From: Longimicrobiales bacterium
Lineage (GTDB): Bacteria; Gemmatimonadota; Gemmatimonadetes; Longimicrobiales; Gaopeijiaceae
DNA: 64,000 bases
Assembly (NCBI GenBank): GCA_958296005.1
Contig: CATQHQ010000001.1
Span: 760,134 to 824,133 of the forward strand
Reading direction: 5' to 3'
The notes under the pieces: generated by a model
What the model saw: the letters and a program-made list of their open reading frames with translations, nothing else
What the model was told of the DNA's origin: nothing
Databases searched by the model: none
Part shown: in pieces, positions 5,764 to 60,232 of the stretch
How positions within the stretch are numbered: the stretch's first letter is position 1
Layout of the letters: each line of letters starts with the position of its first letter
Program-made: the position numbers and the translations under genes

Positions 5764-5838
5764 TCGGTCGAGGGAGTTTCGCGGACAGGCCCAGGTCGCC
5801 GATTCTCGGAGCTTGCCGACAGGAAATCGGCGGCGAAG

Positions 5839-5867
5839 TTGACAGCCCCGTTGATCGGGCTCATTAT
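5839..5867 (+). promoter_or_regulatory. Probable sigma-70-type promoter before the ExbB-like gene
   Basis: A perfect TTGACA (5839-5844), 17 bases, then CATTAT (5862-5867, four of six consensus positions). Transcription would start near 5874 and leave a leader of about 100 bases before the TTG start at 5972. It lies in the 208-base gap after lplA, the only sizeable gap in this plus-strand run. This suggests the channel gene is transcribed separately from the gcv-lplA group. Confidence 0.5.
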
Positions 5868-5971
5868 GGCAAGCCGTGCTATGCGGCCGATCCGGCCCGA
5901 GAGGCCGTAGCCGCGCCGAAGGGCGCGACCAACTCCAACCATCTGCACCGGACCGAAAGCGGGAGGTTCCT

Positions 5972-6664
5972 TTGACCAGCGCGACGACGACTCTCTACGG
6001 AGCTCTGCTCCAGCTCCCGGGCGTGGAAGGCCCGGACCTCACCTTCACCGAGCAGATGCAGCAGGCGTGGATCGACGCGGGGATGATGCGCTGGCCTCTT
6101 GGCCTGTGTCTCGTGGTGGGGATCCTCGTCATCATCTGGAAGTTCTTCGACCTGCTCTCGAAGGGCGGCGGCACGAAGAAGATCCTCCGAGAGGTGGACG
6201 AACTCCTGTCCCAGCAGCGGATCAAAGAGGCCCTCGAGGTCACCCGAGAATCCAACTCTCCTGCCGCCAACATCCTGCACGCGGGGTTGGAGCGGAAGGA
6301 AGAGGGGACCGACCGGGTGATGAAGGCGATCGAGAACCAGGGCCTCATCGAGCTCAGCAAGCTGGAGAGCGGGCTGGTCGTGCTGGCGACCCTCACCAAT
6401 GTGGCGCCGCTGCTCGGCTTCCTGGGGACGGTGCTCGGGATGATCGCGGCGTTCCAGGCGATCGAGCTTGCCGGCGAGGTGGACGCCCAGACGGTGGCGT
6501 CGGGGATCAAGATCGCCCTCACGACGACCGCCGCGGGCTTGGCGATCGCCATTCCCGTGAGCATCGGCCACAACTACTTCGTGTCGCGGATCGACCACTT
6601 GGTGATCGACATGGAGGAGTCGGCGCAGAAGATGATCGACGCCCTCTACGCCATGAAGAGGTAG
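5972..6664 (+). CDS. MotA/TolQ/ExbB proton-channel family protein (lone)
   Basis: Inner-membrane proton-channel subunit of the ExbB/TolQ type, which normally uses proton-motive force to energise envelope processes with an ExbD/TolR partner. The 230-residue product has three membrane segments: about 35-55 (GLCLVVGILVIIW), a second within LVVLATLTNVAPLLGFLGTV, and a third within TTTAAGLAIAIPVSI. The conserved threonine/alanine-rich face of the family is present. The start is a TTG at 5972 because GGGAGG lies five bases upstream; the longer frame has no ribosome site. No ExbD-like gene is adjacent. A complete tolQR set exists separately near 49 kb, so this copy may work with a partner elsewhere. 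Confidence 0.88.
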   Translation: MTSATTTLYGALLQLPGVEGPDLTFTEQMQQAWIDAGMMRWPLGLCLVVGILVIIWKFFDLLSKGGGTKKILREVDELLSQQRIKEALEVTRESNSPAANILHAGLERKEEGTDRVMKAIENQGLIELSKLESGLVVLATLTNVAPLLGFLGTVLGMIAAFQAIELAGEVDAQTVASGIKIALTTTAAGLAIAIPVSIGHNYFVSRIDHLVIDMEESAQKMIDALYAMKR

Positions 6665-6693
6665 CAACGTTCGCCGGAGGCTGATCGTCGCCG

Positions 6694-9141: not shown

Positions 9142-9161
9142 AGCTCAAGGCCGCTGGCGCG

Positions 9162-10883
9162 TCAGCTCCCGTTCAGGATTTCGTCGCGCACGCCGGTCAT
9201 CTCCCAGCGGACCAGCGTGACCGGGATCACGCCCGACGCATAGAACGTGTCGAAGAAGCGTTGGAGGGTGAAGGCGTCGCCCTCCTGGATCGCCCACTCG
9301 GCAATGAGCTCCTCGATCTCGATCTTGCCGGTCAGGTAGCTGGTGCCGTAGCCGGGCTGCTGCAGGTACAGGTGCTGCTCGTTGCGCACCAGCGCGGCGT
9401 CGGGGAGCCATCCTCGGGGCGTCCAGCGGGTGGAGTGGGCGACGGCCTCCTCCATGTCGAAGACGTTGCCGTGCAGGTACAGACCGCTCAAGGCGCGGGC
9501 TGCCCGCTGGGCCAACATGATCCACACCAGCTCCCGCGACCGCGGCTTCCCGGCGAAGAGCCCGGCGTGCATCATCATCTCCTCCATCCCCGTGGCCAGC
9601 CCTTCCGAGCGCGCGTCCCAGATGTTGTACAGCGACGGCACGCGGCGCACCGAGCTCGCGTGGGGCGCCTCGACCAACGTCGCCAGCTCGATCCAGTGAT
9701 GCAGGTGCGCGCGCATCACCACCGGGTCCCGGTAGTTGACTTCGCTGAAGAAGTTGCGGATCTCGCCTGGGGCAGCGGGCGTGAAGGCGCCGTTCTTGGC
9801 TCGTAGCGCCGGGTCCATGTACGCCTCGACGGTCTGGACGTCCCTCTCCTTGAGGAAGAGCATGTAGTCGTCCACGGCCTCGTTCAGCCGCCGGTCGTAC
9901 TCTTCGGGGGTGGCGATCCGCTCCAGCGGGGCGAGGTCGCGGTTGCGGTGCTCCTCCAGGCGAAGGGAAGAGTGGGCCCGGGCCAGCTCCCGCTGCATGA
10001 GGGTGACCTGCTCCTCCCACGAGTAGGAGACCAGGTGCACGTTCCGCATGTACCACGTGTAGTTCTCCCGTCCTACCCCCGACGGGCCGGTCTTCGAGTC
10101 CGCCAGCCCTTCAATCCAGTCGTGGAAGCCGAGCGTCGCCGCGTGGGCCGAGGCGATCGCCGCGTCCAAGGCGTCGCTGGTTCCCGCCACTTCTTCAGCC
10201 AGGGCGTCCAGCTCTGCGGCCTGCCGGCGGAACGAGCGGAGTCCGGCGACCCAAAGGTCGTGGGCGTTGCCGGTCAGGTTGGCACGGGCCTGCTCCAGGA
10301 GGGCGGGAACCGCGCCGATGCGGCCGGCCAGCTCGGCGGCGGCCTCGTCCGAAAGGGGGTAGTCGTACGTCCAGAGGTCGATCCAGCCGTGGATGACGGG
10401 GCCTTCGTGGGCGGGCACGTCGCTCTCTGCGGAGTAGATCGTGACGTAGAACGCCGGGTTGCGCTCCCACGGCCGGCGGACCCGGTGGTCGAAGTCGAGG
10501 CCGTTCATCTCCGCCCGCACCAAGTGCCAATCGATCTGATCGGCGACGGGCCAGCTACCGGAGTCGAGGGCGTCGAGGCGCGCCCGCCAGGCCGGGAGGG
10601 CGTCGTACTGGGCGGCCATGGCGTCGACGGAGTAGTCCGGCACGCCGTCGGTGAACTCTGGGGACTCGAACTCGCGCCACTCGGCGAAGAGAGCGGCGAG
10701 GTCGTCTGGGGTGGCGGTGGCGGCGGCGGAGTCCGGCACATCGGGCGCATCCGGAGGACCACAGGTGGCCAGGGCGATGATGAGGACCGGAGCCAGGATC
10801 GCTCCCGGGGCGGCGGCCAAGTCGGCGGCGACGGAGACCAGCCCGCGGACGTGAGACTCGAACTTCGGTTGCGGCGAGATCAT
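9162..10883 (-). CDS. DUF885-family secreted or lipoprotein-like enzyme
   Basis: A 573-residue DUF885 protein, a family related in sequence to zinc metallopeptidases but with poorly established substrates. Visible family features are the C-terminal segments EGLATGMEEMMMHAG, with a helical metal-site-like pattern, and YLQQPGYGTSYLTGKIEIE, the PGYxxSYxxGK-type motif. The N-terminus has a hydrophobic run APVLIIALATCGPP; the cysteine after LAT could be a lipid-attachment site, though Thr before Cys is not standard. The start ATG and its upstream sequence lie inside a 101-bp sequence repeated 1448 bp away, where a truncated copy of the same gene start is found. It converges on the transglycosylase gene with a 20-base gap and no terminator visible. 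Confidence 0.85.
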   Translation of the reverse strand: MISPQPKFESHVRGLVSVAADLAAAPGAILAPVLIIALATCGPPDAPDVPDSAAATATPDDLAALFAEWREFESPEFTDGVPDYSVDAMAAQYDALPAWRARLDALDSGSWPVADQIDWHLVRAEMNGLDFDHRVRRPWERNPAFYVTIYSAESDVPAHEGPVIHGWIDLWTYDYPLSDEAAAELAGRIGAVPALLEQARANLTGNAHDLWVAGLRSFRRQAAELDALAEEVAGTSDALDAAIASAHAATLGFHDWIEGLADSKTGPSGVGRENYTWYMRNVHLVSYSWEEQVTLMQRELARAHSSLRLEEHRNRDLAPLERIATPEEYDRRLNEAVDDYMLFLKERDVQTVEAYMDPALRAKNGAFTPAAPGEIRNFFSEVNYRDPVVMRAHLHHWIELATLVEAPHASSVRRVPSLYNIWDARSEGLATGMEEMMMHAGLFAGKPRSRELVWIMLAQRAARALSGLYLHGNVFDMEEAVAHSTRWTPRGWLPDAALVRNEQHLYLQQPGYGTSYLTGKIEIEELIAEWAIQEGDAFTLQRFFDTFYASGVIPVTLVRWEMTGVRDEILNGS

Positions 10884-10905
10884 CAGGAGTTCCTCCGAGT
10901 GGGAG
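10805..10905. repeat. 101-bp direct repeat, copy A
   Basis: This copy matches 12253-12353 at a constant offset of 1448 with six mismatches. The final 53 bases (10853-10905) are identical. It covers the ribosome-binding region, the start codon and the first 26 codons of the DUF885 gene. The two copies bracket a stretch of lower-GC DNA. Confidence 0.95.
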
Positions 10906-10918
10906 TCGTCAGGCGCGG

Positions 10919-11702
10919 TTGTTCACGGACCAGAAGTCCTCCGCCACGTTGGCCAAGATAAGCAACTTGTCTCCGCACGAGGCCAAGTTGGCGGACGCGG
11001 TGCGCGACGAGTCGCCGGACTTCATGCTGGACGAACTGCGCAAGAACCGGCCCGCCGTGAAGCTACATGACGTGTACGCCGTGCGCAGCGAGGACCCTGA
11101 CCTCCAGCGACGCGCACTGTCCGCCGTCAGGACCGGCAAGGCTACGCGGCTGGTTGTCGCGGTGAAGAACGAGAAGCTCCGGGACAAGCACGAGGAGATC
11201 GGCGAAGCCGCCAGGAAGCTGCCGGACACGAAGTACTCCGTCGTCTACATGGACCCGCCTTGGGACAAGATGGCACCGATCGACTTGACCGAGATGGACA
11301 TGTCGTTCGTGGCGGACACTGCGCTCCTGTTCATCTGTGTAGCACACGATAAGACAGGCACTGCTTGGCACGTGCTGAGCAAGTGGGGGTTCGAGCACGT
11401 CAGCACGATCATCTGGGACGCCAAGTGGTGGCCTGGCGGCGTCGAAGTCGGACGGCTGGGTGATGCGACGGCACGAGACGCTGTGGATCGCAGTGCGCGG
11501 CGACGTGCCCGGCCCGCCTGCGGAACTCAGGCCTCCCAGCGTGATCGCCGCCAAGAAGCGAGGAGTACGGCGGCCGAAGCCGCCCGAGTTTCGAGCAGTG
11601 GTGGAGAAGATGACGCCGGGTCACGACGGCGCGAGGATCGGCCTGTTCGTGGGCGAGGCCTCAGGTTGGGACACGTGGGACGTTTCAAGGGAAAGGCCTT
11701 GA
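10919..11702 (+). pseudogene. MT-A70-family DNA N6-adenine methyltransferase, frameshifted and truncated
   Basis: The first part, in the frame of 10919, carries an N-terminal ParB-like helical region (SSATLAKISNLSPHEAKL) and the catalytic motif YMDPPWDKM, then a strand ending TIIWDAKWW. The family's C-terminal half continues one frame over, from about 11430-11460: RRHETLWIAVRG, then KPPEF and GWDTWDVSRE, equivalent to the HE.L...RG, HS.KP.EF and GWD.WGNE motifs of phage and mobile-element MT-A70 enzymes. The ELFAR element is degenerate (GLFVG). The N-terminus also seems cut by the repeat boundary. A single-base shift explains the break, so assembly error is possible, but truncation plus motif decay favours a real pseudogene. 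Confidence 0.75.
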
Positions 11703-48980: not shown

Positions 48981-49742
48981 TCATACCAGTCGTTCCTTCG
49001 CAAGGGTCCCGATGAACTCGCTGGCGAAGCCTTGCAGCTCGCCGAGGACCAAGTTGAGGCGGGAGGCGAAGTGGTTGTACGCGATCACGGACGGGATCGC
49101 TACGGTCAGTCCCGCTACCGTGGTGATCAGCGCTTCGGCGACGCCGGGCGCCACGGCCTGAATGTTGGCCGATCCGGCCTGCTGGATGCCCAGGAAGGTG
49201 TTCATGATGCCGATCACGGTGCCCATCAGCCCGAGAAGGGGCGAGACGGAGCCGATCACCGCCAGCCAGGTGAGGCCGTGGGAGAGCTCGTCGGCCTCCT
49301 CGGCCTCCACCTTTTCCAGCACCATCCGCAGGGCCTCCAGCTGCGTGAGGGAGAGACCGGGCGTCTCCACCGTGCCTTGCCTGGCGTTCTTCAGCGCCCC
49401 GGGGCGGAGTTCGTCCACGAAGGCGAGGCCGCTGCGGAAGAGGCGGGTGTAGGGGGACTCGGGAAGGGCCGTCAGGGCTTCGCGGGCGCCGTCCAGACTG
49501 GCGGCTTGCTCCATCTGGTCGAGGAAGCTGTCGCCGTGACGGCGGACGTTGCGGTAGTGGCGAACCTTGGCCAGGATCACCCACAGGGAGGCTACGGAGA
49601 AGAGCCCGAGCACGCCGAGCACCACCAGAGTGGGCCCGCTGGCGTCCGCCACCATGTCCAGCATCCCCTGGCGCGCGTTCTGAGGGGCGACGAGACCCGT
49701 GCCGGCGGCGAAGGCGGAGGCGAACGCCGGGGTAAGGGTCAT
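48981..49742 (-). CDS. tolQ: TolQ/ExbB-type proton channel protein
   Basis: Inner-membrane channel subunit of the Tol motor, 253 residues, three membrane segments: PTLVVLGVLGLFSVASLWVI, WLAVIGSVSPLLGLMGTVIGI and ITTVAGLTVAIPSVIAY. The GSVSPLLGLMGTVIGIMNTF element is the family signature. An N-terminal alanine-rich 30-residue extension may act as an uncleaved leader. ATG overlaps the stop of the upstream SDR gene, so the tol unit is read through from polysaccharide genes. Confidence 0.94.
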   Translation of the reverse strand: MTLTPAFASAFAAGTGLVAPQNARQGMLDMVADASGPTLVVLGVLGLFSVASLWVILAKVRHYRNVRRHGDSFLDQMEQAASLDGAREALTALPESPYTRLFRSGLAFVDELRPGALKNARQGTVETPGLSLTQLEALRMVLEKVEAEEADELSHGLTWLAVIGSVSPLLGLMGTVIGIMNTFLGIQQAGSANIQAVAPGVAEALITTVAGLTVAIPSVIAYNHFASRLNLVLGELQGFASEFIGTLAKERLV

Positions 49743-50701
49743 GCCGTCGTCGGCGCCGCAGCGACGTGCTCGAACGTACGGCGGAAGCCTTCCGCCAAGC
49801 CTACGGCGGGCGTCCAGCCAAGAGCCCGGAGCTTGGCCGTGGCCAGGACCGAACGGACGATCTCGCCAGGACGGGCGTCCCGGTGGCGACGGCGGCGAGG
49901 AGCGCCGCTGGCTCGCTCCAGCAGCTCGGCCACGGTGTTCACGCTGGTAGCCACCTCCATTCCTACGTTGAAAGCCCGGGCGTTGATGCCGGGCGCGTCG
50001 GAAAGGGCGGTCTCCGACACGATCAAGTTGGCTTGGGCCACGTCCCCGACGAAGACGTAGTCCCGCGTCTGCTCGCCGTCTCCGTAGATCGTCAGGTCTT
50101 TGCCGGTCAGGAGCCGCTCCAAGAAGATCGCCACCACGCCGGCCTCTCCGTGGGGGTCTTGGCGGGGTCCGTAGACGTTCCCGTAGCGCAGGGCCGCGTA
50201 CTCCAGCCCGTAGACCGCCCGGTAGTAGTCGAGGTAGTGCTCCCCGGCCAGCTTGGTCACGCCGTAGGGGGAGATGGCGCCCTTGGGGGCACTCTCGGAA
50301 GTGGGAAAGGTCTCCGGCTCCCCGTACACCACGCCGCCGCTGGAGGCGAAGACGAAGCGCTTGGTTCCGGCTCGGCGGGCTGCTTCCAGAACGTTGATGA
50401 GCCCGAGGACGTTGATCGATGCGTCCCGCGCCGGGTCGGCCACGGAGATGCGCACGTCGATCTGGGCGGCGTGGTGGTTGATGAGGTCGAAGCGCTCCCG
50501 GAGGATCAGGCGGGACGCCTCTTCGCTGCCGATGTCGGCTTGGAGGAACGCCGCCTGGGGCGGCACGTTCTCCATCCGTCCCGACGACAGGTCGTCCACG
50601 ATCCAGACCCTGTCGCCCCGGCCAAGGTGGGCGTCGGCGACATGGCTCCCGATGAAGCCGGCGCCGCCGGTGACGAGGACTTTCCGGCTTTCGTTGGGCA
50701 T
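49739..50701 (-). CDS. NAD-dependent sugar-nucleotide epimerase/dehydratase
   Basis: Extended SDR of 320 residues. Rossmann motif GGAGFIGSHVADAHLGRGD, cofactor aspartates in VDDLSSGRMENVP, substrate-region FASSGGVVYGEP, catalytic pair in SPYGVTKLAGE, and RYGNVYGPRQDPHGEAGVV. Residues around DLSSGRxENxP resemble UDP-glucose/UDP-GlcNAc 4-epimerases (GalE-like, archaeal-type subgroup). The exact reaction is uncertain. A CAGGAG lies just before the ATG with unusually short spacing. It overlaps tolQ by four bases. Confidence 0.85.
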   Translation of the reverse strand: MPNESRKVLVTGGAGFIGSHVADAHLGRGDRVWIVDDLSSGRMENVPPQAAFLQADIGSEEASRLILRERFDLINHHAAQIDVRISVADPARDASINVLGLINVLEAARRAGTKRFVFASSGGVVYGEPETFPTSESAPKGAISPYGVTKLAGEHYLDYYRAVYGLEYAALRYGNVYGPRQDPHGEAGVVAIFLERLLTGKDLTIYGDGEQTRDYVFVGDVAQANLIVSETALSDAPGINARAFNVGMEVATSVNTVAELLERASGAPRRRRHRDARPGEIVRSVLATAKLRALGWTPAVGLAEGFRRTFEHVAAAPTTA

Positions 50702-50811
50702 CTGCTCCTGGTCCGGCGGATCGGGGATGCTTCGGGCAGGCGGCGGTCGCAGAAATCTAGTGGCAACTGGGTTGCAGTGTTGCGGGGCCGGCTGGGCGCA
50801 ACGGAGCTCCG

Positions 50812-52362
50812 TTAACTGCGGCGCCCTGCCAGACGGTTCTGGAGAAGCCTGGCCAGCCGGTCGTAGAGGGGAACGCGACACAGCCTTCCGGCGGCGAGGA
50901 CCAGGACGCACCACGAGAGACCGGCGGCGGACACGACTCCGAGGCGAAGGAGTTCGCTGGCTTGGCCGGGCTCGGGGAGGGCCGCGACGACGAGCAGGAG
51001 GAGGATCGCCGGGCCCGTGGTGGCGGCGGCGATGCGGCCAACTCCATGGAAGGCGGCGGCGACGCGGCGGCCGGGGGCCAGTTCGGGGGGAGCGGAGAGC
51101 CAGAACGCTCCAGCGACGACGGCGTTCATCGCCACCTGAGCGGCTACGAGTCCCGCGAACGACCACAGCCATGTCGCCGGGACCAGCGCCAGGGCCCGAA
51201 AGACGTGGCCGACCACCTGCACGCGGTTGACCAAGGCGGAACGACCTGTGGCGAAAGCCGCCTGGAACGCCAGCTGGTTCCGGCCCTGGACCACCACGCC
51301 GGCCATGAACAGGGCCATGCTGGCGGACACCGGGCCAAGCATCCCATCTCGGGCCAGCTCGCCCCGACCGAAGAGGAGCGCCGCGATCCACGGCGACATG
51401 ACGGCGACGAAGACGGCCACGGGAACGGCGGCTGCGGAGAGGCTCTCCAGCGCGGAGGCGAGGGCGGTGCCGGGGTTGCGGTCCGGCGCACGGGAGAAGC
51501 GGGCCAGCGCCATCGTGGACGACGAGTCGTTGAGCGCTCCGTGGAGGAGGTCGTGGACCATGCGGCCGAAGACGACGGCGGTGAACAGCCCCGGGCCCAA
51601 AGTCGAGGCGGCGACCCGGTACACCCATTCGCCGCCCGTGGTCGCGGCGTTGCTCCAGCCGAGACCGGCCCAGCGCCTCCATACGCGCCGGGCGGCCTGC
51701 CGGTGAACCGCGGTTCCGGCCGGTGGGCTGGAGGGACGAGGTGCTTCGCGGCGCGTCCACGCCAGCAGCGCCAAGCCGCCCGCCGCTGTGCCCGTCATGC
51801 CCGCCCAGCCAAGGCCGGTCACCCCGAAGCGGTCGCCTAGAACGACGACGAGGAGGACCGTCGCGGCTGCGGGCAGGACCTTGTTCCCGAGCGCCACTCG
51901 CCCGAAGCGGTTCGACGCTTCCAACGCCACCAGCGAGGTGGTCGTCAGGGCCAGGAACGCCAGCGCGGGCGACCGGATGCGCAGGAGGGCGACGGTCAGT
52001 GCGCGCTGCTCGCCGTCGTAGCCGGGCGCGAAGGCGTCCACCAGCCACGGGGCGAAGACCAATGCCGCGGTTGCCGCCAGCAGTGCCGCCGACCCCGCTT
52101 GGCGGCGAACCCGGGCCAGGAGCAGCGTTCCGTCGCGGGAACGGACGCCGAGCCCCGCATACTCCGGAAGGGCGATCGACTTCAGGGGCCCGAACATGAA
52201 CGCCTTTGCCAGGAAGGCCACGATGTAGAGGCTCATGAAGTAGGCGTCGGTCTCGGCGCCCGCTCCAAAGAAGAAGCCGATCATCGACTGGAGCGCCAAG
52301 CCCAGGACGGCGGCGGCGACGGTTCCCGCCCCCAAGGCGCCCAGGCCGCGGGCGGAGCTCAT
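50812..52362 (-). CDS. MurJ/MviN-like lipid-linked oligosaccharide flippase
   Basis: Multidrug/oligosaccharidyl-lipid/polysaccharide (MOP) exporter, 516 residues with about 13-14 membrane segments. The N-terminal part TVAAAVLGLALQSMIGFFFGAGAETDAYFMSLYI is typical of MurJ (GFxR..lia..fGag...DAf..A). The seventh and eighth segments and the cytoplasmic basic loop RRVWRRW are present. Because it sits among polysaccharide genes and beside an initiating transferase, it more likely flips a surface-polysaccharide repeat unit (Wzx role) than lipid II. ATG start; ribosome site weak. Confidence 0.83.
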   Translation of the reverse strand: MSSARGLGALGAGTVAAAVLGLALQSMIGFFFGAGAETDAYFMSLYIVAFLAKAFMFGPLKSIALPEYAGLGVRSRDGTLLLARVRRQAGSAALLAATAALVFAPWLVDAFAPGYDGEQRALTVALLRIRSPALAFLALTTTSLVALEASNRFGRVALGNKVLPAAATVLLVVVLGDRFGVTGLGWAGMTGTAAGGLALLAWTRREAPRPSSPPAGTAVHRQAARRVWRRWAGLGWSNAATTGGEWVYRVAASTLGPGLFTAVVFGRMVHDLLHGALNDSSSTMALARFSRAPDRNPGTALASALESLSAAAVPVAVFVAVMSPWIAALLFGRGELARDGMLGPVSASMALFMAGVVVQGRNQLAFQAAFATGRSALVNRVQVVGHVFRALALVPATWLWSFAGLVAAQVAMNAVVAGAFWLSAPPELAPGRRVAAAFHGVGRIAAATTGPAILLLLVVAALPEPGQASELLRLGVVSAAGLSWCVLVLAAGRLCRVPLYDRLARLLQNRLAGRRS

Positions 52363-52379: not shown

Positions 52380-54215
52380 CTACGCGGTCCTGCCGCCGCC
52401 GACGCGGTTGCGACGCGCGAGCCAGGTGCGGCCGGACACGATCTCGAGCTTTATGACCTCGGCCGTCAGGCCCGCCGCCAGCGCTGCCTGCAGGTGGGTC
52501 TCCACGTCGATCCCGGACCCCTTGGGGTAGGCCAAGACGACATGCTCGGCCTGGGCCAGCCGGGCCAGCGGCACGAGCCTCGAGATCGGACCCAGGACGG
52601 GCACTCCCTGGATTCGACCCCCCGCGATCCGGGGGCCCGCCTCCGCGAAGCCGACGACATGGTAGTCGCCTCCGTTACGGGCCCGGATCTCCCGATAGGC
52701 GGAGATCGCCCCGTCGGAGGAACCGGCGATGATCGTGCGCTTGCCCTCCCTCGCTTCGCGCTCTCGGGCGGTCACTTCGCCCAGTCGTCGGACGCCCAGG
52801 CGGGTGCCGGCGACGAAGAGCAGGGTGAGCATCCCTTCGATGACGACCACGGTCCGGGGAAACGAGGGCAGGCGCAACGCCAGGAGGAGGGTCGCAAAGA
52901 GGAGGGAGCCGAGGAGCACCGTCCCAGCCAGGCGAAAGGTGTCCGGGGTGGATGCAAAGCGCCATCGCGTGTCGTAGATCCCCCTCATGAGAGCCAGCCC
53001 CACCCGGAAGAGGAGGAGGTACGGAAGGACGGCGGCCATGTTCTGGAGCTGGTCGGCGGGGATCACGCCGTCGAAGCGAAGGTGGAAGGCCAGGTACAGC
53101 GCCGCGAAGACGAGGAGCACGTCCCCGGAGACGGCGCCGAAGAGCATCACCCATCGGTACCAGGGCGACTGTTCCCAGCCCCGGCGGGACGGCTTCACGA
53201 GGAAGTCCCGGAAGCGCTCCTGGACGTGTCCGTCGTAGAGAAAGGCGCCGGCGTAGAAGAGGATGACGAGGAAGAGGGCGGCGCCCGCGGCGTACGTGAG
53301 CGGAGCGACGGTGATCGCCATTAGGCCGAGGACGCCGGCGACCACCGAAAGGGCGTAGACCGCCACTAGGGCGCGACCGTGGGAGAGGCCGTGGGCCAGA
53401 AGGCGGTAGTTGATGTGGTCGGCTTGTCCCCGGCTCACCGGCACTCCGCGAAGCTTGCGCGTGAGGGTGACGAAGGTGGCGTTGAAGATCGGGACCGCGA
53501 GGAGCATCGCCGGCGCCAGCACGGTCATGCCCACATGGGTCATTCCCCGCCAAGAGTCCCCTATCGCCAAGCCCGCCAAGAGGAAGCCCAGGAACATGGA
53601 GCCGGAGTCGCCCAGCAGAATCCGGGCGGGCGGAAGGTTGTGGCGCAGGAAGCCCAGAGATGCGCCGGCCACGGCCCATGATAAGAGACCCGTCGCGGTC
53701 CGGTCCGTGGCGAACGCGAAGAATCCGACGAACACGGCGGCGGCGGCGGCGACCCCCGGGAGCATGCCGTCCATGTTGTCGATCAGGTTGAAGGCGTTGC
53801 ACAGCCCCACGAGCCAGAAGAGGGTAAGGGGAACTGCCACCCACTCCATGCCGGGCCCTAGTGGGAACGTCACGCCCGAGACGATCACCAGGGTGGCGGC
53901 GGCCAGCTGCGCCAGCAACTTGGTTCGCGGCGCCAGCGGGTAGGCGTCGTCCCAGAGGCCGGCGAGGAAGAGGCACGTCGCGCCGGCGAAGATGTTGGCC
54001 AGCGGCGCCGGCGGATAGCCCCGCACGCCGATCACCACGAACGCCAGGAGAGCGACTGCCCAGAGGACGATTCCGCCTCCCACGGGCACGGCGACGGGGT
54101 GGTTCGGGTCCGGCTTGGAGAGGAGGCCGAGGCGCGGCAGTGCCCGAACGGCGAAGTGGGTCAGGAGGTATCCGGCGAGTGCGGCGACTCCCGCGAAGCC
54201 GAGGGCTTCGAGCAT
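52380..54215 (-). CDS. WecA/MraY-type sugar-1-phosphate transferase fused to FlaA1/CapD N-terminal module
   Basis: Two modules in one 611-residue chain. Residues 1-335: a polytopic undecaprenyl-phosphate HexNAc-1-phosphate transferase, with the metal/UDP site GLWDDAYPLAPRTK (Asp89, Asp90), NAFNLIDNMDG (140-150), GDSGSMFLG and ADHINYRLLAHGLSHGRA. Residues 350-611: four membrane segments and a CoA_binding_3-like Rossmann domain (RLGVRRLGE, TIIAGSSDGAIS, ending in a basic tail), as seen at the N-terminus of CapD/FlaA1/WbpM sugar dehydratases but without the catalytic dehydratase domain. The stop-start TGATG links it to an SDR gene. Probably starts lipid-linked repeat-unit synthesis; the second module may tether or regulate. 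Confidence 0.85.
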   Translation of the reverse strand: MLEALGFAGVAALAGYLLTHFAVRALPRLGLLSKPDPNHPVAVPVGGGIVLWAVALLAFVVIGVRGYPPAPLANIFAGATCLFLAGLWDDAYPLAPRTKLLAQLAAATLVIVSGVTFPLGPGMEWVAVPLTLFWLVGLCNAFNLIDNMDGMLPGVAAAAAVFVGFFAFATDRTATGLLSWAVAGASLGFLRHNLPPARILLGDSGSMFLGFLLAGLAIGDSWRGMTHVGMTVLAPAMLLAVPIFNATFVTLTRKLRGVPVSRGQADHINYRLLAHGLSHGRALVAVYALSVVAGVLGLMAITVAPLTYAAGAALFLVILFYAGAFLYDGHVQERFRDFLVKPSRRGWEQSPWYRWVMLFGAVSGDVLLVFAALYLAFHLRFDGVIPADQLQNMAAVLPYLLLFRVGLALMRGIYDTRWRFASTPDTFRLAGTVLLGSLLFATLLLALRLPSFPRTVVVIEGMLTLLFVAGTRLGVRRLGEVTAREREAREGKRTIIAGSSDGAISAYREIRARNGGDYHVVGFAEAGPRIAGGRIQGVPVLGPISRLVPLARLAQAEHVVLAYPKGSGIDVETHLQAALAAGLTAEVIKLEIVSGRTWLARRNRVGGGRTA

Positions 54216-55234
54216 CAGGCGGCCGGGTGCCGACCGGCGGGCAGGTTGCGCGCGTACCACTCGGCCGTCGCCAGGATCGCCTCGGCGAGCTCGACCCTGG
54301 GTTGGAACCCCAGCAGCTCGAACGCCCTGGCCATGCGGGGGACGCGCACGTCGATGTCGGAGAAGTCGATCTTGCGGAACACGATCTCGGAGCTGGAGCC
54401 CAAGAGGGAGACGACGCGACGCGCCAGGTCGTAGATCGTGAGGGTGTTGCGCGGGTTGCCGATGTTGAAGGTTTGGCCGACGGCGGCTGGGCGTTCGAGG
54501 GCGCGGAGGAGGGCGTCCACGAAGTCGTCGATGTAGCACCACGACCGGATCTGGGTGCCGTCGCCGTGTACTTCCAAGGGATCGCCGCGCTGTGCGGCAG
54601 TGATGAAGCGGAGCATGGCGTGGTCGCCCAGCCGGAGGCGTCCGAAGACGTTGAAGGGCCGGATCGTGACGGTGGGCAGCTCCCTCTCTCGGTGGTAGCA
54701 GTAGACCAGATGCTCGCCGGCCAGCTTGGCGATCGAGTAGGTCCAGCGCGCCTCGCCCACGGGACCGATCGTGGCCGGGGAATCTTCGCCGGCGCGGAAG
54801 GCGTTGATTCCGCTGACCTCGGAGGTCGAGAAGTACACGAAGCGGTGCAGGCCGTCCTGGCCGTCCACGGCTCGGAGCAGGTTGCGGGTTCCGGTGAAGT
54901 TGGTCTCGATCGTGTCGAGTCCCCGGGCGCGGACGTGGTTCACTCCGACGACCGCCGCCAAGTGGACGATGGTGTCGTGGCCCCGGACAGCCTTGCTCAA
55001 GCTGGGCTCGTCCAAGACCGATCCTTCGACCAGCCGCAGCGACGGATGCTTCCACGCCCGGCTCAGGGCGACGGCGTTGCCGCGGAAGGACTGGTCGTAG
55101 AGGGTGACTTGGTTGGCGCCGACCAAGCGCTCCGCCAGCGCCGACCCGATAAAGCCGCCTCCGCCGGTGATGAGGACCCGGTGGCCGGCGATCGGCGGCG
55201 GAGCGGGCGAGGGTGGGGAGGCGAAGCCGGTCAT
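54215..55234 (-). CDS. NAD-dependent epimerase/dehydratase (UDP-glucuronate decarboxylase-like)
   Basis: Extended SDR of 339 residues: ITGGGGFIGSALAERLVG, then YFSTSEVSGI and YSIAKLAGEHLV with the catalytic Tyr/Lys, IRPFNVFGRLRLGDHAMLRFI, SWCYIDDFVDALL and TFNIGNPRNTLTI. The PFNVFG and FNIGNP elements are shared by UDP-xylose synthases and dTDP-glucose 4,6-dehydratases; the STSEV-type substrate loop points to a decarboxylase or 4-epimerase. It overlaps the fused transferase gene by one base. It likely makes an activated sugar for this locus. Confidence 0.83.
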   Translation of the reverse strand: MTGFASPPSPAPPPIAGHRVLITGGGGFIGSALAERLVGANQVTLYDQSFRGNAVALSRAWKHPSLRLVEGSVLDEPSLSKAVRGHDTIVHLAAVVGVNHVRARGLDTIETNFTGTRNLLRAVDGQDGLHRFVYFSTSEVSGINAFRAGEDSPATIGPVGEARWTYSIAKLAGEHLVYCYHRERELPTVTIRPFNVFGRLRLGDHAMLRFITAAQRGDPLEVHGDGTQIRSWCYIDDFVDALLRALERPAAVGQTFNIGNPRNTLTIYDLARRVVSLLGSSSEIVFRKIDFSDIDVRVPRMARAFELLGFQPRVELAEAILATAEWYARNLPAGRHPAA

Positions 55235-55256
55235 TGTGTTCGTAAATATAAGCGCG

Positions 55257-55907
55257 TCAAAGGGGCTTGGCAGGCACGCCGGCGACCCGCGCCCCCTCGG
55301 CGACGTCCGCGACTGCGACCGCCCCAGCGCCGACCACGGCGTCGGCTCCGATCGTGCAACCGGGCGCCACGACCGATCCGGTTCCGAGGAAGACCCGGGG
55401 TCCGACCACGACCCGTCCCGCGAGGTGCACGCCGGGGCAGATCACCGCGTCGTCGCCGATGCGAGCGTGGTGAGCGACGGTGGCGCCGGGGTTCACCACG
55501 ACGTTGCGGCCCACCTCTACGTCTACGGTGAAGGAGGTGGAGTCCATGATCAGGCAACCGTCGCCGAAGGAGACGCTGCTGGTGCGGACGGCGTCGGGGT
55601 GGACCCAGGTGGCCAGGGTTGCGCCGAAGCCCTGAACGCGCCGGCGCAGGGCGGCCCGGGCGGTCGGGTCCCCCACGGCGATCAGCGCCGCGAAGTCGCC
55701 TGCGCGGCTTTCCAGCCAAGCGACGGGGCCGAGGACGGGGAAGCCGTGGACGGAGCACCCCTGTAGGGCGGGGGAGTCGTCCAGGTAGCCGGCCAAGCGG
55801 TGGGGCGGGTCGGCGGCGGGTCGGCGGACCGCGGCAAGCGCCTCGTGAACGGAGATGGCGTCGGCGCCGAGGTCGCCTGCCCCCACCAGCACGACGTGGC
55901 GGCTCAC
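55257..55907 (-). CDS. PglD/NeuD-type sugar acyltransferase
   Basis: Acetyl-CoA-dependent N- or O-acyltransferase, 216 residues. The N-terminal Rossmann-like domain starts RHVVLVGAGDLGADAI. The C-terminal left-handed beta-helix has hexapeptide turns (VNPGATVAHHARIGDDAVICPGVHLAGRVVVG; VAPGCTIGADAVVGAGAVAVADV) and the typical end GVPAKPL. The catalytic histidine would be in VAHHARIG. GTG start overlaps the stop of the upstream GT4 gene (GTGA). It probably acetylates an amino sugar of the repeat unit. Confidence 0.88.
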   Translation of the reverse strand: MSRHVVLVGAGDLGADAISVHEALAAVRRPAADPPHRLAGYLDDSPALQGCSVHGFPVLGPVAWLESRAGDFAALIAVGDPTARAALRRRVQGFGATLATWVHPDAVRTSSVSFGDGCLIMDSTSFTVDVEVGRNVVVNPGATVAHHARIGDDAVICPGVHLAGRVVVGPRVFLGTGSVVAPGCTIGADAVVGAGAVAVADVAEGARVAGVPAKPL

Positions 55908-57076
55908 CGGCGGGTGGGGGCGCCTTGGCCGTGCGCCCGGGGCAACGCCGAAGCGCAGGCTTCACGGTAGAGGCGGAAGCGCTCCTCCCACGTGGGGAAG
56001 TGGCGGAGGCGCTCGAACCCGGCGTTGCGAAGGGCTTGGCGCCTCGCCGGATCGGTGAGGACGCGGGCCAGTCCCCGGGCGCAGTCCGCCGGGTCGAGCG
56101 GGTCCACGTACTCGGCGGCCGGGCCGCACGTCTCCTTGGCGAAGTCGTAGGCGCTGGTCACTAGAGGCACGCCGAAGTGCATGGCCTCGACGTAGGAGGC
56201 GGAAAAGGACTCCAGCAGCGACGGCAGGAAGACGGCGTCGGCGTCGCGGTAGAGGGGGCCGAGTTCCGAGTGAGGCACCCGGCCCACGCGCTCGATGGGG
56301 ACGACTTCTCCCCAGCGGCGGAGAGCGTCGCGGAACGGCTCCAGCCATGGCTCGCGATCGGACGAAATCGTCATGACGAAGCGGCCTGGACCGACGTCGA
56401 GCTCCTGGAGGCGCGCCCCGGTCTCGGGGACGACGGCGAAGTTCTTGAGCGGCTTGGGAACTCCGATGACCAAGACCGTCCATGGTTTCCGGGGCCGCCC
56501 GTTCTCGGGGGCGGGCCTCTCGTCGGAGAGAAAGGTGGAAGGGCCGTTGGGCACCAAGACGAACCGTTCGGGAGGGATCCGCCAGCGGGCCGAGAGGCGG
56601 TTGGCCATGGTTCTGGTCTGGACGCATACCCGGCGCGCCCGTCGCACGGCCAGGGAAGCATAGAAGCGCCTGGCACGGTCCTGGAGCCGCCAAGACCCGG
56701 ACAGCGGCCGCCGAAGCGGGGAGTTGGGGTACGCCGCAGTGGGGTCGTGCCAGCCGACGACCGTGGGCACGGGGGCGCGGAGCGGGCCGGCGCCCGCCAA
56801 CGTGAAGACGACGTCGGCACCCCACTTCTTGGCCAGCCCTGGCAGCCAGCGGTTCTCCAGAGCCAAGCGGCCGGCCAGCCCACGGGGGCTCGCGGAGATC
56901 GCGTCCTGCCAGGAACGGGTCGTCAGGGCTCCGATCCCCAAGCCGGGCCGGGCGACGCACAGCCACTCGTCGTGACCGCCCCAGGTTGCGACCGCCCGCC
57001 AAAAGTTGGCGGCGTTCTGCAGGCCGCCGGCGGCGGAGGAAGGGGGAAGGGGAAGAAGGTTGACGAGAACCTTCAT
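55904..57076 (-). CDS. GT4-family glycosyltransferase
   Basis: Retaining GT-B enzyme, 390 residues. N-terminal MKVLVNLLPLPPSSAAGGLQ contains the glycine-rich acceptor loop. The C-terminal half has the nucleotide-sugar segments VLVIGVPKPLKNF, RVGRVPHSELGPLYRDADAVFLPSLLESFSASYVEAMHFG (with the E.F....EA variant of the EX7E motif) and SAYDFAKETCG. The ATG at 57076 begins the normal fold; the longer upstream frame would cross the divergent promoter region. It is first gene of the minus-strand block and divergent from the export genes. Confidence 0.87.
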   Translation of the reverse strand: MKVLVNLLPLPPSSAAGGLQNAANFWRAVATWGGHDEWLCVARPGLGIGALTTRSWQDAISASPRGLAGRLALENRWLPGLAKKWGADVVFTLAGAGPLRAPVPTVVGWHDPTAAYPNSPLRRPLSGSWRLQDRARRFYASLAVRRARRVCVQTRTMANRLSARWRIPPERFVLVPNGPSTFLSDERPAPENGRPRKPWTVLVIGVPKPLKNFAVVPETGARLQELDVGPGRFVMTISSDREPWLEPFRDALRRWGEVVPIERVGRVPHSELGPLYRDADAVFLPSLLESFSASYVEAMHFGVPLVTSAYDFAKETCGPAAEYVDPLDPADCARGLARVLTDPARRQALRNAGFERLRHFPTWEERFRLYREACASALPRAHGQGAPTRR

Positions 57077-57125
57077 ACGTGCTCGCGAGTCGTAGTCGTG
57101 GGGCGGTGCAGGGTCCGAGACTTCG

Positions 57126-57151
57126 TTGGAAGGCCGTCCACATACTATACT
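57126..57151 (+). promoter_or_regulatory. AT-rich divergent promoter region
   Basis: In the 128 bases between the GT4 gene and the export gene there is a cluster CATACTATACTACATT. TATACT at 57146-57151 fits a -10 hexamer on the plus strand, and the reverse complement offers TATAGT for the minus strand. TTGGAA (57126-57131) is the only -35-like element but spacing is 14, so the -35 assignment is weak. Confidence 0.35.
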
Positions 57152-57204
57152 ACATTTCCACCCCCGGGCCTCCGCGACGCCTCGTCGCCTTGCCACAGGA
57201 CCTC

Positions 57205-57849
57205 GTGAAGACGCGATTTGTTGCCCCCGTGCTTGCCCTGGTCGCCATCGGGGTGCCGTGCGCTGTTACCTCCCAGACGGTCGTCGCTCGGGATGAAGAT
57301 CCCGTTCGGGACAGCGGTCCGGTCGGGGCCCTTTTGCCGGGCGACGTGATCGATGTCCAGATCTGGCGGGAGGAGACCCTCTCTGGCCAGTTCGCGGTCG
57401 ACGAATCGGGCACGGTGGTTCTTCCCTTGATCGGAGCGAGGAACGTTGCGGGCGTATCGGCTCAGGACCTTCGCGACGAACTGGCCTCGGCATACGCGGA
57501 GTTCCTCAACAACCCTTCGATCAACGTGAAGCTCTTGCGCCGGATCACCGTCGCCGGCGAGGTGCGGGTCCCTGGACTGTACACGGTCGACGCGACCGTG
57601 AGCATCGCCGATCTCATCGCCCAAGCTGGCGGGCTGAACATTGACGCCGACGCCGACAAGATCACCCTGTTCAGAGAGGGCCAGCGCTTTGAACTGGACC
57701 TGAACGGGGCCACGGTGGTGGGCCAAGCCGGCATCCGCTCCGGCGACCGGGTCTCGGTGGGGCAGCGCAGCTGGCTGTCCCGCAACTTTCCTTCGGTGGT
57801 GGGGATCATGTCGATCGTCAGCAACGTGATCCTCATTGCAAGACGGTAG
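57205..57849 (+). CDS. Polysaccharide export protein (OPX/Wza-like, short form)
   Basis: A 214-residue export protein. The basic signal TRFVAPVLALVAIGVPCAV is followed by the Poly_export domain (LLPGDVIDVQIWREETLSG, DESGTVVLPLIGARNV, LNNPSINVKLL) and one SLBB repeat (RITVAGEVRVPGLYTVDATVSIADLIAQAGG). A C-terminal hydrophobic helix VVGIMSIVSNVILI follows. It is much shorter than Wza and ends with the helix soon after the SLBB domain, so it may span or contact the outer membrane differently. The GTG at 57205 has AGGA just upstream and gives a good signal peptide. It is followed four bases later by the BY-kinase gene. Confidence 0.88.
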   Translation: MKTRFVAPVLALVAIGVPCAVTSQTVVARDEDPVRDSGPVGALLPGDVIDVQIWREETLSGQFAVDESGTVVLPLIGARNVAGVSAQDLRDELASAYAEFLNNPSINVKLLRRITVAGEVRVPGLYTVDATVSIADLIAQAGGLNIDADADKITLFREGQRFELDLNGATVVGQAGIRSGDRVSVGQRSWLSRNFPSVVGIMSIVSNVILIARR

Positions 57850-57853
57850 CGCT

Positions 57854-60232
57854 GTGGCGCAAAACGGCGGAGCGCCCGCGCTGGAAGCGTCGCCGGAGGA
57901 GTCCCCGTTCAGGGACTTGGTCAACCTCCTCCGCCGGAACCTGTGGCTCATCCTGGCGTCCACGGTGCTCTTCGGCGGCGCGACGGCCTACTACGTGTGG
58001 ACCGTCCGACCGGTTTACGAGGCCGCCGCCACGGTTCACGTGGACGCCAGCCGGCCCGTCACCCAGGAGTTCGCCTTCATTGCGGAGGTTCTCCGTATGG
58101 GCGACGTGGACACGGAGATGGCGTTGCTGGGCGCCCGAAGCTTGGCGGAAACCGCCGTCGACTCCCTGGCCTTGCAGGTCGTCTTCGAGAAGCCGTCCAG
58201 CCTGGGACGAGAAGACGTGTTCTCGGCGGTCAGCGCCGGCGCGGCGACGACGGCGGAGCGGTACGACTTCCGCCGCGAGGGCGAAGACCCCGGAGCGCCG
58301 TACGCGATCTCGGATTCCGAGGGTCGGGAGATCGGCCGGATCGCCCAGGGAGAGGCCCTGGTCTTCAACGGCGCGCGCATCGTGCTGGCGGCGGGGGAAC
58401 TGCCGGAGGAGTTCCGGATCAGGACGCTGGGGTTCCGAGAGGCCGTCGAGACCTTGGTGCAGGAGTTGGCCGTCGTCCGACCCAACCGCGAGGCGTCGGT
58501 CATGTCGGTGTCCTACCGGGGGACGGACCGGGCGTTGGTGGCGAAGGTCCCGAACTTGGTCGCTTCGCTCTACCTGGAGCGGCGCAACCAGGCCAAGCGG
58601 CTCGAAGCCGACTCCACCGTGGCTTTTCTGAAGAGGCAGATACGGGAGCACGGCGACAGTCTGCAGAACGCCGAGGAAGCTCGGTTGCAGTTTCAGCAGG
58701 GCGCGCAGGTCGTGGACTTGGCGGCTGAAGGCGCGGCGCAGGTGCGTCTGCGCGCCGACGCCCAAGCCGAGAAGCGCAGGCTGGAGGCCGAGCTGGCTTC
58801 GTTGACTTTCGTGCTGGACGCCATCGCGGCGCAGGGGGGGGCTGCCAGTCGGGATGCCGGGGAGCGGTCGCCGTACCGGGAACTGGCGGCGTTCGCGACG
58901 TTCCTGGAGAACCAAGCCGTCACAGAGCTGTTGTCCGAACTGAACCGCATCGAGACCGAGCGGACGGCCCAGCTGGAGCTGCGCACGCCGGCGCACCCGG
59001 AAGTGGTGTCGATGGACGCCCAGGTCCGCCAGCTGGAAGACGAGCTCTACCAGCTCGCGGTGAACTACCAAGGGAACTTGCGTGCTCAAGTCGAGTCGGC
59101 CGACGAACAGCTTGCCCAGTTCGGGGTGCAGCTGGAGCGGATCCCGGCCAACACCGTGCAGCTCAGCCGCTTGGAACGGCAAGTCGGGAACCTGTCGGAG
59201 ATCTACGCGACGCTTCAGTCCCGGCTACAACAGGCGCGGGTCGCCCAGGGGGTGCGCGCGGGAGACGTGCGGATCATCGACCCGGCGATCGAGCCGACCC
59301 GCCCGATCCGGCCCCGAAAGGCGCGGGGGCTGGCGCTGGCGTTGTTCTTCGGCTTCGTCGCTGGGACGGGGCTGGCGGCCGCTCGGGACCATATGGACGA
59401 GCGGATCCACTCTCGGCAGGAGCTGGCTCGGCTGGCCGGCGCGCCAGTGCTGGCGGTGATCCCGCGGATCACGGGCGTCAAGTCCAACGGCCGGATCGCC
59501 GGGGCTCCCCGAAGGGACAAGAATCGGCCTCTGGTGGTCGGCGACGCGGCGCTTCGGGGGTCGCCCGTGTCGGAGGCGTACCGAGCGTTCCGTACGAACA
59601 TCACCTTCCTGAACGTGGACCGTCCGCTTCAGACGGTGCTGGTGACGAGTCCCGGACCTTCCGAGGGCAAGTCCACGTGCACCGGCAACTTGGCGTTGAC
59701 GCTCGTGCAGCAGGACGCCGATGTGCTTCTCGTGGACGCGGACCTTCGGCGAGGCGTGATACACCAGATGTTCGGAGGGCGCGCGGAGCCGGGGCTTACC
59801 AATGTGCTGAAAGGCGACGTGGAGCTGGAAGATGCCGTCCAGACGGTGGAGGTGCCGGGGGGCAAGACGCTCCAGTACCTGCCCACGGGGACGCTCCCCC
59901 CGAACCCTTCGGAGCTGCTGGGCTCCGGCCAGATGGCGTCGTTGGTGGAGGCGCTTCGAGGACGGAACAAGGTCGTCCTCTTCGACTCCCCGCCCCTAAA
60001 CTTGGTGACCGATGCGGCCGTTCTGGGGACTCTGGCCGACGGCGTGATCCTCGTGGCTCGGGCGGGGATCACCCTTCAGGGCGCGCTGGGGTTTGCCCGT
60101 GGGCAGCTGGGTGCCGTCGGCGCGCCTCTTGCGGGCGTGGTGCTCAACGACGTGGATGCCAGCGGGCGGGGACGGTACTACGGCGACGACTACGGATACT
60201 ACCAGCGGTACTATAAGACGGCGGACGCCTGA
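57854..60232 (+). CDS. Wzc-like polysaccharide co-polymerase and BY tyrosine autokinase
   Basis: Inner-membrane protein controlling chain length and export, 792 residues. N-terminal Wzz-type domain with TM1 (NLWLILASTVLFGGATAYYV), a long periplasmic coiled coil about 240-420, a second membrane segment (LALALFFGFVAGTGLAAA), then the cytoplasmic kinase. Walker A is SPGPSEGKST (Lys606), Walker A' VLLVDADLRRG, Walker B VVLFDSPP. Seven tyrosines crowd the C-terminus (775, 776, 780, 782, 783, 786, 787), the expected autophosphorylation cluster. GTG at 57854 chosen; a TTG at 57836 would overlap the previous gene. The matching phosphatase (Wzb) is not visible. Confidence 0.92.
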   Translation: MAQNGGAPALEASPEESPFRDLVNLLRRNLWLILASTVLFGGATAYYVWTVRPVYEAAATVHVDASRPVTQEFAFIAEVLRMGDVDTEMALLGARSLAETAVDSLALQVVFEKPSSLGREDVFSAVSAGAATTAERYDFRREGEDPGAPYAISDSEGREIGRIAQGEALVFNGARIVLAAGELPEEFRIRTLGFREAVETLVQELAVVRPNREASVMSVSYRGTDRALVAKVPNLVASLYLERRNQAKRLEADSTVAFLKRQIREHGDSLQNAEEARLQFQQGAQVVDLAAEGAAQVRLRADAQAEKRRLEAELASLTFVLDAIAAQGGAASRDAGERSPYRELAAFATFLENQAVTELLSELNRIETERTAQLELRTPAHPEVVSMDAQVRQLEDELYQLAVNYQGNLRAQVESADEQLAQFGVQLERIPANTVQLSRLERQVGNLSEIYATLQSRLQQARVAQGVRAGDVRIIDPAIEPTRPIRPRKARGLALALFFGFVAGTGLAAARDHMDERIHSRQELARLAGAPVLAVIPRITGVKSNGRIAGAPRRDKNRPLVVGDAALRGSPVSEAYRAFRTNITFLNVDRPLQTVLVTSPGPSEGKSTCTGNLALTLVQQDADVLLVDADLRRGVIHQMFGGRAEPGLTNVLKGDVELEDAVQTVEVPGGKTLQYLPTGTLPPNPSELLGSGQMASLVEALRGRNKVVLFDSPPLNLVTDAAVLGTLADGVILVARAGITLQGALGFARGQLGAVGAPLAGVVLNDVDASGRGRYYGDDYGYYQRYYKTADA

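Follow-up and report, generated by a model that had tools for sequence, protein, structure and literature searches.

A single uninterrupted reading frame on the minus strand of the window (the whole stretch of 64,000 nucleotides analysed here) encodes a WecA/WbpL/MraY-type polytopic phosphoglycosyl transferase (polyPGT) that continues into a membrane module of four helices and a Rossmann-like domain, with no dehydratase behind the module. This fusion is a real and recurrent domain architecture, for which we found no published description in the open-licence literature. The transferase half retains its conserved acidic residues, the module is closest to the N-terminal half of the WbpM/PglF/CapD dehydratases, and the gene lies next to a short-chain dehydrogenase/reductase (SDR) gene among polysaccharide genes.

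Results

A transferase and a membrane-Rossmann module in one protein

The frame runs from an ATG at 54215 to a stop at 52380 and encodes 611 residues (Table 1). Pfam placed PF00953 at residues 75-218 (112.7 bits, cut-off 27) and PF13727 at residues 411-564 (35.2 bits, cut-off 25), and detected neither the dehydratase domain PF02719 nor the Bac_transf domain PF02397 anywhere in the 611 residues. The missing dehydratase agrees with the original prediction. Neither of these two domains was listed for any of the 68 aligned fusions described below. The architecture of the large monotopic PGTs, PF13727 followed by PF02397, was likewise listed for 0 of the 68, and PF02397 was not found in the window genome assembly.

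The transferase half is complete, as had been proposed. D89, D90, N140-D146, G202-D203 and D266-H267 are invariant across the 68 aligned proteins; the acidic DD and NxxNxxDxxD motifs are kept (D89, D90, N140, N143 and D146 invariant, D149 nearly so). From work on WecA and MraY, we take these conserved acidic residues to be catalytic.

An AlphaFold2 model built with the 68 sequences (mean pLDDT 89.8, pTM 0.86) consists of an MraY fold (residues 1-303), one extra helix (305-328), four long helices (351-489) and a five-stranded Rossmann-like domain (490-603), and the frame stops about 20 residues past the last strand of this domain. Together with the PF13727 match, the model bears out the four helices and Rossmann-like domain that the original prediction had placed after the transferase. 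Residues 1-303 superpose on MraY (6oyh; Z 32.7, rmsd 2.2, 279 aligned). Ten helices of the fusion match those of MraY and one more precedes the four-helix bundle; by helix parity, the Rossmann-like domain would lie on the cytosolic side. Residues 490-595 match 3nkl (Z 13.0, 102 aligned), which is entered as a UDP-D-quinovosamine 4-dehydrogenase of Vibrio fischeri; Rex repressors also match the domain (Z 13.2 and less). Foldseek returned WbaP (8t53) with a probability of 1.00, but its superposition on residues 358-590 (Z 12.0) has an rmsd of 11.1, and the likeness to WbaP therefore covers the domains but not necessarily their relative arrangement. The C-terminal dimer hairpin of WbaP was not seen in the fusion model, whose Rossmann-like domain has five strands only. 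By sequence, the profile of the 68-member alignment matches MraY, 3nkl (46 bits) and WbaP (42 bits).

Table 1. The fusion gene, its domains and the neighbouring genes, in window positions
Feature	Position	Strand	Basis
Fusion protein, 611 aa: polyPGT + four-helix/Rossmann-like module	52380..54215	-	ORF, Pfam, alignment, AlphaFold2 model
WecA/WbpL/MraY-type transferase domain, aa 1-328	53232..54215	-	Invariant columns; MraY 6oyh match
Four membrane helices, WbpM/PglF/CapD-type module, aa 351-489	52749..53165	-	Model secondary structure; 8t53 match 358-590
PF13727 Rossmann-like domain, aa 490-604; glycine motif degenerate (GSSDGA)	52404..52748	-	Pfam, structure match
Extended SDR, 339 aa, TSE/YxxxK, UXS/ArnA/LegB-like	54215..55234	-	Pfam, NCBIfam, structure-chain profile matches
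NeuD/PglD-family sugar acetyltransferase	55257..55907	-	TIGR03570 172.9 bits, above its cut-off
GT4-type glycosyltransferase	55904..57196	-	Pfam
MurJ/Wzx-like flippase	50812..52362	-	TIGR01695 102 bits, below its cut-off 235
Second extended SDR, inside ORF 49739-52048	49739..50701	-	ORF
Polysaccharide export protein (Wza-like), divergent	57079..57849	+	Pfam
Wzz/BY-kinase-like chain-length protein, divergent	57836..60232	+	Pfam

The fusion recurs in nine named phyla

A domain-architecture search for the same fusion in related genomes, proposed with the original prediction, aligned the joined frame in 67 further loci (68 members with the window protein). Pfam lists PF00953 in 68/68 members and PF13727 in 61/68, and identity to the window protein ranges from 25 to 60%. 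The 67 loci cover nine named phyla: Thermodesulfobacteriota (26), Gemmatimonadota (2 + 15, the 15 from the window's own order), Myxococcota (9), Acidobacteriota (6), Nitrospinota (3), Omnitrophota (2), and Methylomirabilota, Rokuibacteriota and Planctomycetota (one each); one further locus is unassigned.

Fifty-two of the aligned loci came from a scan of genome contigs, which gave 80 loci: 54 fused, one masked (L062, left out) and 25 unfused or cut. The scan patterns were peptides from both halves, and the fused share among these loci is therefore no frequency. L014, whose 5' end is cut, and L037 are fused but were left out of the alignment. Searching 154 genomes of the window's order supplied the other 15 rows. 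L082 and L083 duplicate L002 and L003, L085 is cut, L069 has only part of the module, and L147 was dropped because it had no module match.

Recurrence in 67 further loci from nine named phyla shows that the fusion does not stem from a frameshift or a local accident. A frameshift, split genes and an assembly error were each considered and rejected, since the joined frame recurs uninterrupted and no split halves, which would have spoken against the predicted fusion, were found among the loci examined. Beside unfused polyPGTs, no separate downstream module was seen except a full CapD in one locus (L071).

The adjacent SDR and its operon

By its predicted gene content, the window locus is of the Wzx/Wzy polysaccharide type. 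The SDR stop and the fusion start share one base (TGATG), in agreement with the overlap first described; the flippase gene starts 17 nt after the fusion, and the NeuD-like gene lies 22 nt from the SDR gene. The SDR gene had also been taken as the start of the transcript. This no longer holds, as the NeuD-like and glycosyltransferase genes come earlier on the same strand. A promoter scan matched two promoter-like sequences where the SDR gene starts, one of them across its start codon; no conclusion here rests on them.

Of the 63 fused loci with at least 700 nt of upstream sequence, 26 have an SDR gene of the STSE signature as the direct upstream neighbour, on the same strand and no more than 500 nt away; among unfused polyPGT loci the figure is 2 of 33 (Fisher p 1.6e-4, loci treated as independent despite kinship). 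The unfused control was reduced from 36 to 34 loci by removing two at contig ends (L058 and L078), and 33 of these had upstream room. By group, the SDR is upstream in 2/2 loci of Gemmatimonadota, 2/8 of the window's family, 4/5 of the window's order, 1/2 of Omnitrophota, 1/1 of Methylomirabilota, 10/25 of Thermodesulfobacteriota, 4/9 of Myxococcota, 2/6 of Acidobacteriota, 0/1 of Planctomycetota, 0/3 of Nitrospinota and 0/1 unassigned; the Rokuibacteriota locus, with too little upstream sequence, lies outside the count.

The operon of the nearest relatives reads NeuD-DegT-SDR-fusion-flippase, with NeuD, DegT, SDR and fusion in this order in L002, L003, L004 and L005, and partly in L084; of the two queries used, only AT1 counts as DegT, AT2 being a glycosyltransferase. 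Judged from the encoded families, this gene order is a putative route to a UDP-4-amino sugar. Two DegT proteins that were scanned are PseC/ArnB/LegC-like, below cut-off. DegT is absent from the window at the junction 55234-55257, where L002, L003, L004 and L005 have it between NeuD and SDR. The window genome has two full-length DegT genes elsewhere, with 37% and 34% identity to the L002 DegT.

The closest solved chain to the window SDR is 8vr2 (302 bits), followed by UDP-glucuronic acid decarboxylase 1 (UXS1, 124 bits). Its signature is STSE...YSIAK with an invariant R297, and it stays below all NCBIfam cut-offs. An excerpt of PMC8987622 gives TDKxnMx3K as the WbpM/PglF fingerprint, [ST]DE for UDP-GlcNAc retaining dehydratases and [ST]SE for GDP-mannose dehydratase, and TSE is assigned to most glucuronic acid decarboxylases in a passage of PMC10338323. 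TDE, TDK and TDKxnMx3K, the fingerprints of UDP-GlcNAc dehydratases and WbpM, were not found in the window SDR sequence. On these comparisons, the SDR probably makes a UDP-4-keto sugar or a pentose and is probably not a WbpM-type dehydratase. An SDR of the same signature also lies beside unfused polyPGTs in L059 and L071, which ties the SDR to the transferase and not to the module.

These data bear on the proposal that the SDR supplies the missing dehydratase in trans. Its place as a conserved neighbour stands; as a substitute for the lost dehydratase it is weakly supported, given the misfit of the signature and L071, and it may make another 4-keto sugar instead. A broader form of the proposal has the SDR docking on the module and supplying the lost activity, with the 4-keto sugar then aminated, acetylated and passed to the transferase. 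The upstream SDR in fused as against unfused loci and the gene order of the four relatives (and in part L084) would fit such a split metabolon, as would a window genome with neither a full CapD (no match at 1e-50) nor a large monotopic PGT. However, the SDR resembles UDP-glucuronate decarboxylases, the place is empty in 37 of the 63 fused loci, the window operon contains no DegT while the two in the genome lie elsewhere, and in L071 the SDR sits beside an unfused polyPGT although a full CapD follows 2 kb on, as it does beside the unfused polyPGT of L059. We therefore regard this arrangement as possible but unlikely.

Kind and ancestry of the module

A profile of the fusion modules scored the CapD-type N-termini of the same order at 118-219 bits and 17 large monotopic PGTs (monoPGTs) of that order at 8-54 bits. 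Seventy module-bearing frames of the order were examined: 47 CapD-type, 17 large monoPGT, 5 polyPGT and one weak spurious frame, counted per locus, so that overlapping loci enter more than once. Their labels were set by catalytic domain, and Pfam agreed for the proteins submitted to it, five large PGTs and three CapD. None of the 70 is a transporter; occurrence of the module in unrelated transporters had been named as evidence that would count against the predicted fusion.

In a module tree of 87 rows, with assumed rooting and 42 of the 68 fusions, each of the three kinds of module (42 from fusions, 30 from CapD and 15 from large monoPGTs) can be cut off from the rest at a single branch. The branch supports are moderate for the fusions (77/84), 96/81 for CapD and 92/76 for the large monoPGTs, and the mean path is 3.95 from fusion to CapD vs 5.60 from fusion to large PGT. 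This tree leaves out a spurious frame of 192 aa (L156) and two long branches (L188 and L194) that were present in an earlier module tree. The WbaP/WcaJ kind had been suggested as nearest by the best NCBIfam match of the C-terminal part (TIGR03025 EPS_sugtrans, 64 bits), and was overturned by the profile and the tree against CapD and large-PGT modules of the same order. The nearest kin of the fusion module is thus the N-terminal half of WbpM/PglF/CapD, with the WbaP-type module further off. Of the earlier label "FlaA1-type", the dehydratase-front kind is upheld by the profile scores, while WbpM/PglF/CapD-type is the better name.

In trees of the transferase half (one of which left out six rows, two cut and four long or odd), fused and unfused rows are intermixed and there is no single fused clade. 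Well-supported sister pairs differ in the module (L057/L059, 99/89; L072/L064, 99/90), which indicates that some lineages can do without it. These trees would fit one lineage of the module followed by losses, or a spread of the module.

It is natural to infer that adjacent wbpL-like and wbpM-like genes fused and the dehydratase was then lost. In P. aeruginosa, according to a section of PMC6804347, the SDR gene wbpK immediately precedes wbpL, with wbpM downstream of the two, and a wbpVL operon is drawn in PMC4773840. L071 (Falkowbacteria), at 5028-10980, contains a TSE-type SDR, an unfused DNMDG polyPGT, a protein of 549 aa that Pfam does not match and, about 2 kb beyond the polyPGT, a full-length CapD. 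It is a possible unfused counterpart of the fusion.

The GAG motif of the Rossmann-like domain is kept in 51/67 fusions and the DDD motif in 52/67. The window protein (GSSDGA) and its three nearest relatives (L002, L003 and L084) have a degenerate glycine motif; the window protein may therefore no longer bind nucleotides, and the role of the domain may be only structural. In this clade, judged from the motif, a purely structural or protein-docking role seems as likely as nucleotide sensing. Strongly altered glycine motifs also occur in L057, L072, L086, L089, L090, L092-L096 and L099. These are scattered over the earlier module tree, which suggests repeated loss of nucleotide binding.

The same gene history could have left the module as a remnant, its helices now serving only as a membrane anchor or stabiliser. 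The P. aeruginosa gene order and L071, with its SDR, unfused polyPGT and full CapD, are consistent with this, as are the degenerate Rossmann motifs in some fusions, and part of PMC8987622 describes the N-terminal region of WbpM as anchoring the protein in the membrane without being needed for dehydratase activity. With about ten membrane helices of its own, however, a polyPGT needs no added anchor, and the module is kept at 25-60% identity with its GAG and DDD motifs in most fusions. We consider a mere remnant rather improbable.

Genome context and a second polyPGT fusion

The fusion is the sole PF00953 and the sole PF13727 match in the window genome assembly (3.06 Mb, two contigs, 92% complete). 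In this assembly, the MraY model TIGR00445 matched only the fusion, under its cut-off, whereas most relatives show an MraY-like match, and the MurG model TIGR01133 gave no match. With no MraY above cut-off and no MurG, the assembly probably lacks a region, and it would be unsafe to call the fusion the only initiating transferase of the genome. The absence of MraY and MurG could reflect an assembly gap or an oddity in the cell wall genes. We also considered that the fusion replaced the only large monoPGT of the genome but did not press this reading, as some relatives have the fusion together with a CapD or large PGT.

Eleven DGxDG polyPGTs of the same order (L100-L110; for example, L100:877-2520) carry another kind of C-terminal part, about 150 aa long, to which Pfam gives no match. 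An AlphaFold2 model of L100 (pLDDT 74.7) matches MraY over residues 1-317; from about 346 to 490 it matches GAF domains, namely 3e98 (Z 9.3, rmsd 4.0), 8jrc (Z 8.8, rmsd 3.8) and also DosP 9bkv (Z 9.4). Proteins of this type are apparently polyPGT-GAF fusions, as modelled. Their presence beside the PF13727 fusion in one order indicates that sensor-like additions to polyPGTs occur twice.

Discussion

We lean modestly towards the explanation that the fusion is the initiating transferase of a Wzx/Wzy-type polysaccharide locus, joined to a non-catalytic module for tethering, dimerisation or regulation and supplied with a UDP-sugar made by the SDR. The polyPGT half would transfer a sugar-1-phosphate from this UDP-sugar to undecaprenyl phosphate, and the module would sit beside it in the same membrane, with the Rossmann-like domain in the cytosol, where the UDP-sugar enters and UMP leaves. 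The operon SDR would make the sugar to be loaded, joined in the relatives by the DegT aminotransferase and the NeuD acetyltransferase. Lacking a catalytic domain, the module may act as a tether, a dimerisation part or a regulatory part, by analogy with WbaP. The degenerate glycine motif of the window protein and its closest kin, and the sister pairs that differ in the module, count against this explanation.

That the transferase half is inactive or loads another acceptor is very improbable: in the window clade HINYR takes the place of the HIHHR/HLHHR of unfused DGxDG polyPGTs, and DNMDG replaces DGxDG in 42/42 fused rows checked, but the catalytic acids are invariant or nearly so in all 68 aligned proteins, most unfused polyPGTs collected also have DNMDG (a count biased by a scan that used that peptide), and flippase, export and chain-length genes lie in the same locus.

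The fusion is kept in nine named phyla without a catalytic domain behind the module, which indicates that the module is useful by itself. In the sections of PMC10942596 cited here, the WbaP DUF (PF13727) is stabilised by UMP, UDP and UTP, provides most dimer contacts and is proposed as a regulator, and its sharing by WbaP and PglF-like dehydratases is termed puzzling. The large PGT EpsZ is activated by a response regulator that is modelled as touching its DUF (an excerpt of PMC12802240). The most likely role of the fused module, by this analogy and as proposed for WbaP, is in docking, dimerisation or regulation of the polyPGT.

Tentatively, and with somewhat less confidence than an even chance would warrant, the fusions may represent a third enzyme class with a membrane-Rossmann module, namely polytopic PGTs that are nucleotide-gated or tethered to a metabolon. 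If so, the module would serve UDP-sugar pathways at the membrane in general, as a receptor or for docking, and, together with the polyPGT-GAF group, would point to regulation of the first committed step through sensor parts at the cytosolic C-termini of polyPGTs. The module can be removed without touching the transferase fold, which makes regulation, dimerisation and tethering testable in one protein.

Comparison with known systems

The window SDR shares TSE, YxxxK, the extended SDR type and an invariant arginine-proline stretch with UDP-glucuronate decarboxylase, ArnA and LegB-like SDRs, but differs in scoring below every NCBIfam cut-off; its nearest chain, 8vr2, is listed without a reaction.

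The fusion has the fold, the catalytic residues and the position in a polysaccharide locus of WecA/WbpL-type polytopic PGTs, as well as an SDR neighbour as in wbpK-wbpL; it differs from them by its C-terminal four-helix and PF13727 module. In Table 1 of PMC10942596, the part of that source used here, poly-PGTs are entered as "PGT only", and the fusion corrects this view of polytopic PGTs as a transferase alone.

With the WbpM/PglF/CapD (Cap5D) dehydratases, to which the profile scores and the tree place the module nearest, the fusion shares the four helices and PF13727. It differs in that the PF02719 dehydratase is absent and a transferase stands ahead of the module instead.

The large monotopic PGTs WbaP, WcaJ and EpsZ belong to the same reaction class, that of initiating PGTs, and are joined to the same kind of module. 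However, their catalytic domain is unrelated and follows the module rather than preceding it, and their module is more distant from that of the fusion. EpsZ, in the portion of PMC12802240 consulted, has no C-terminal hairpin, like the fusion model and unlike WbaP. The fusion thus gives the module a third, unrelated catalytic partner without a dehydratase, in which its function is separable from the neighbouring chemistry.
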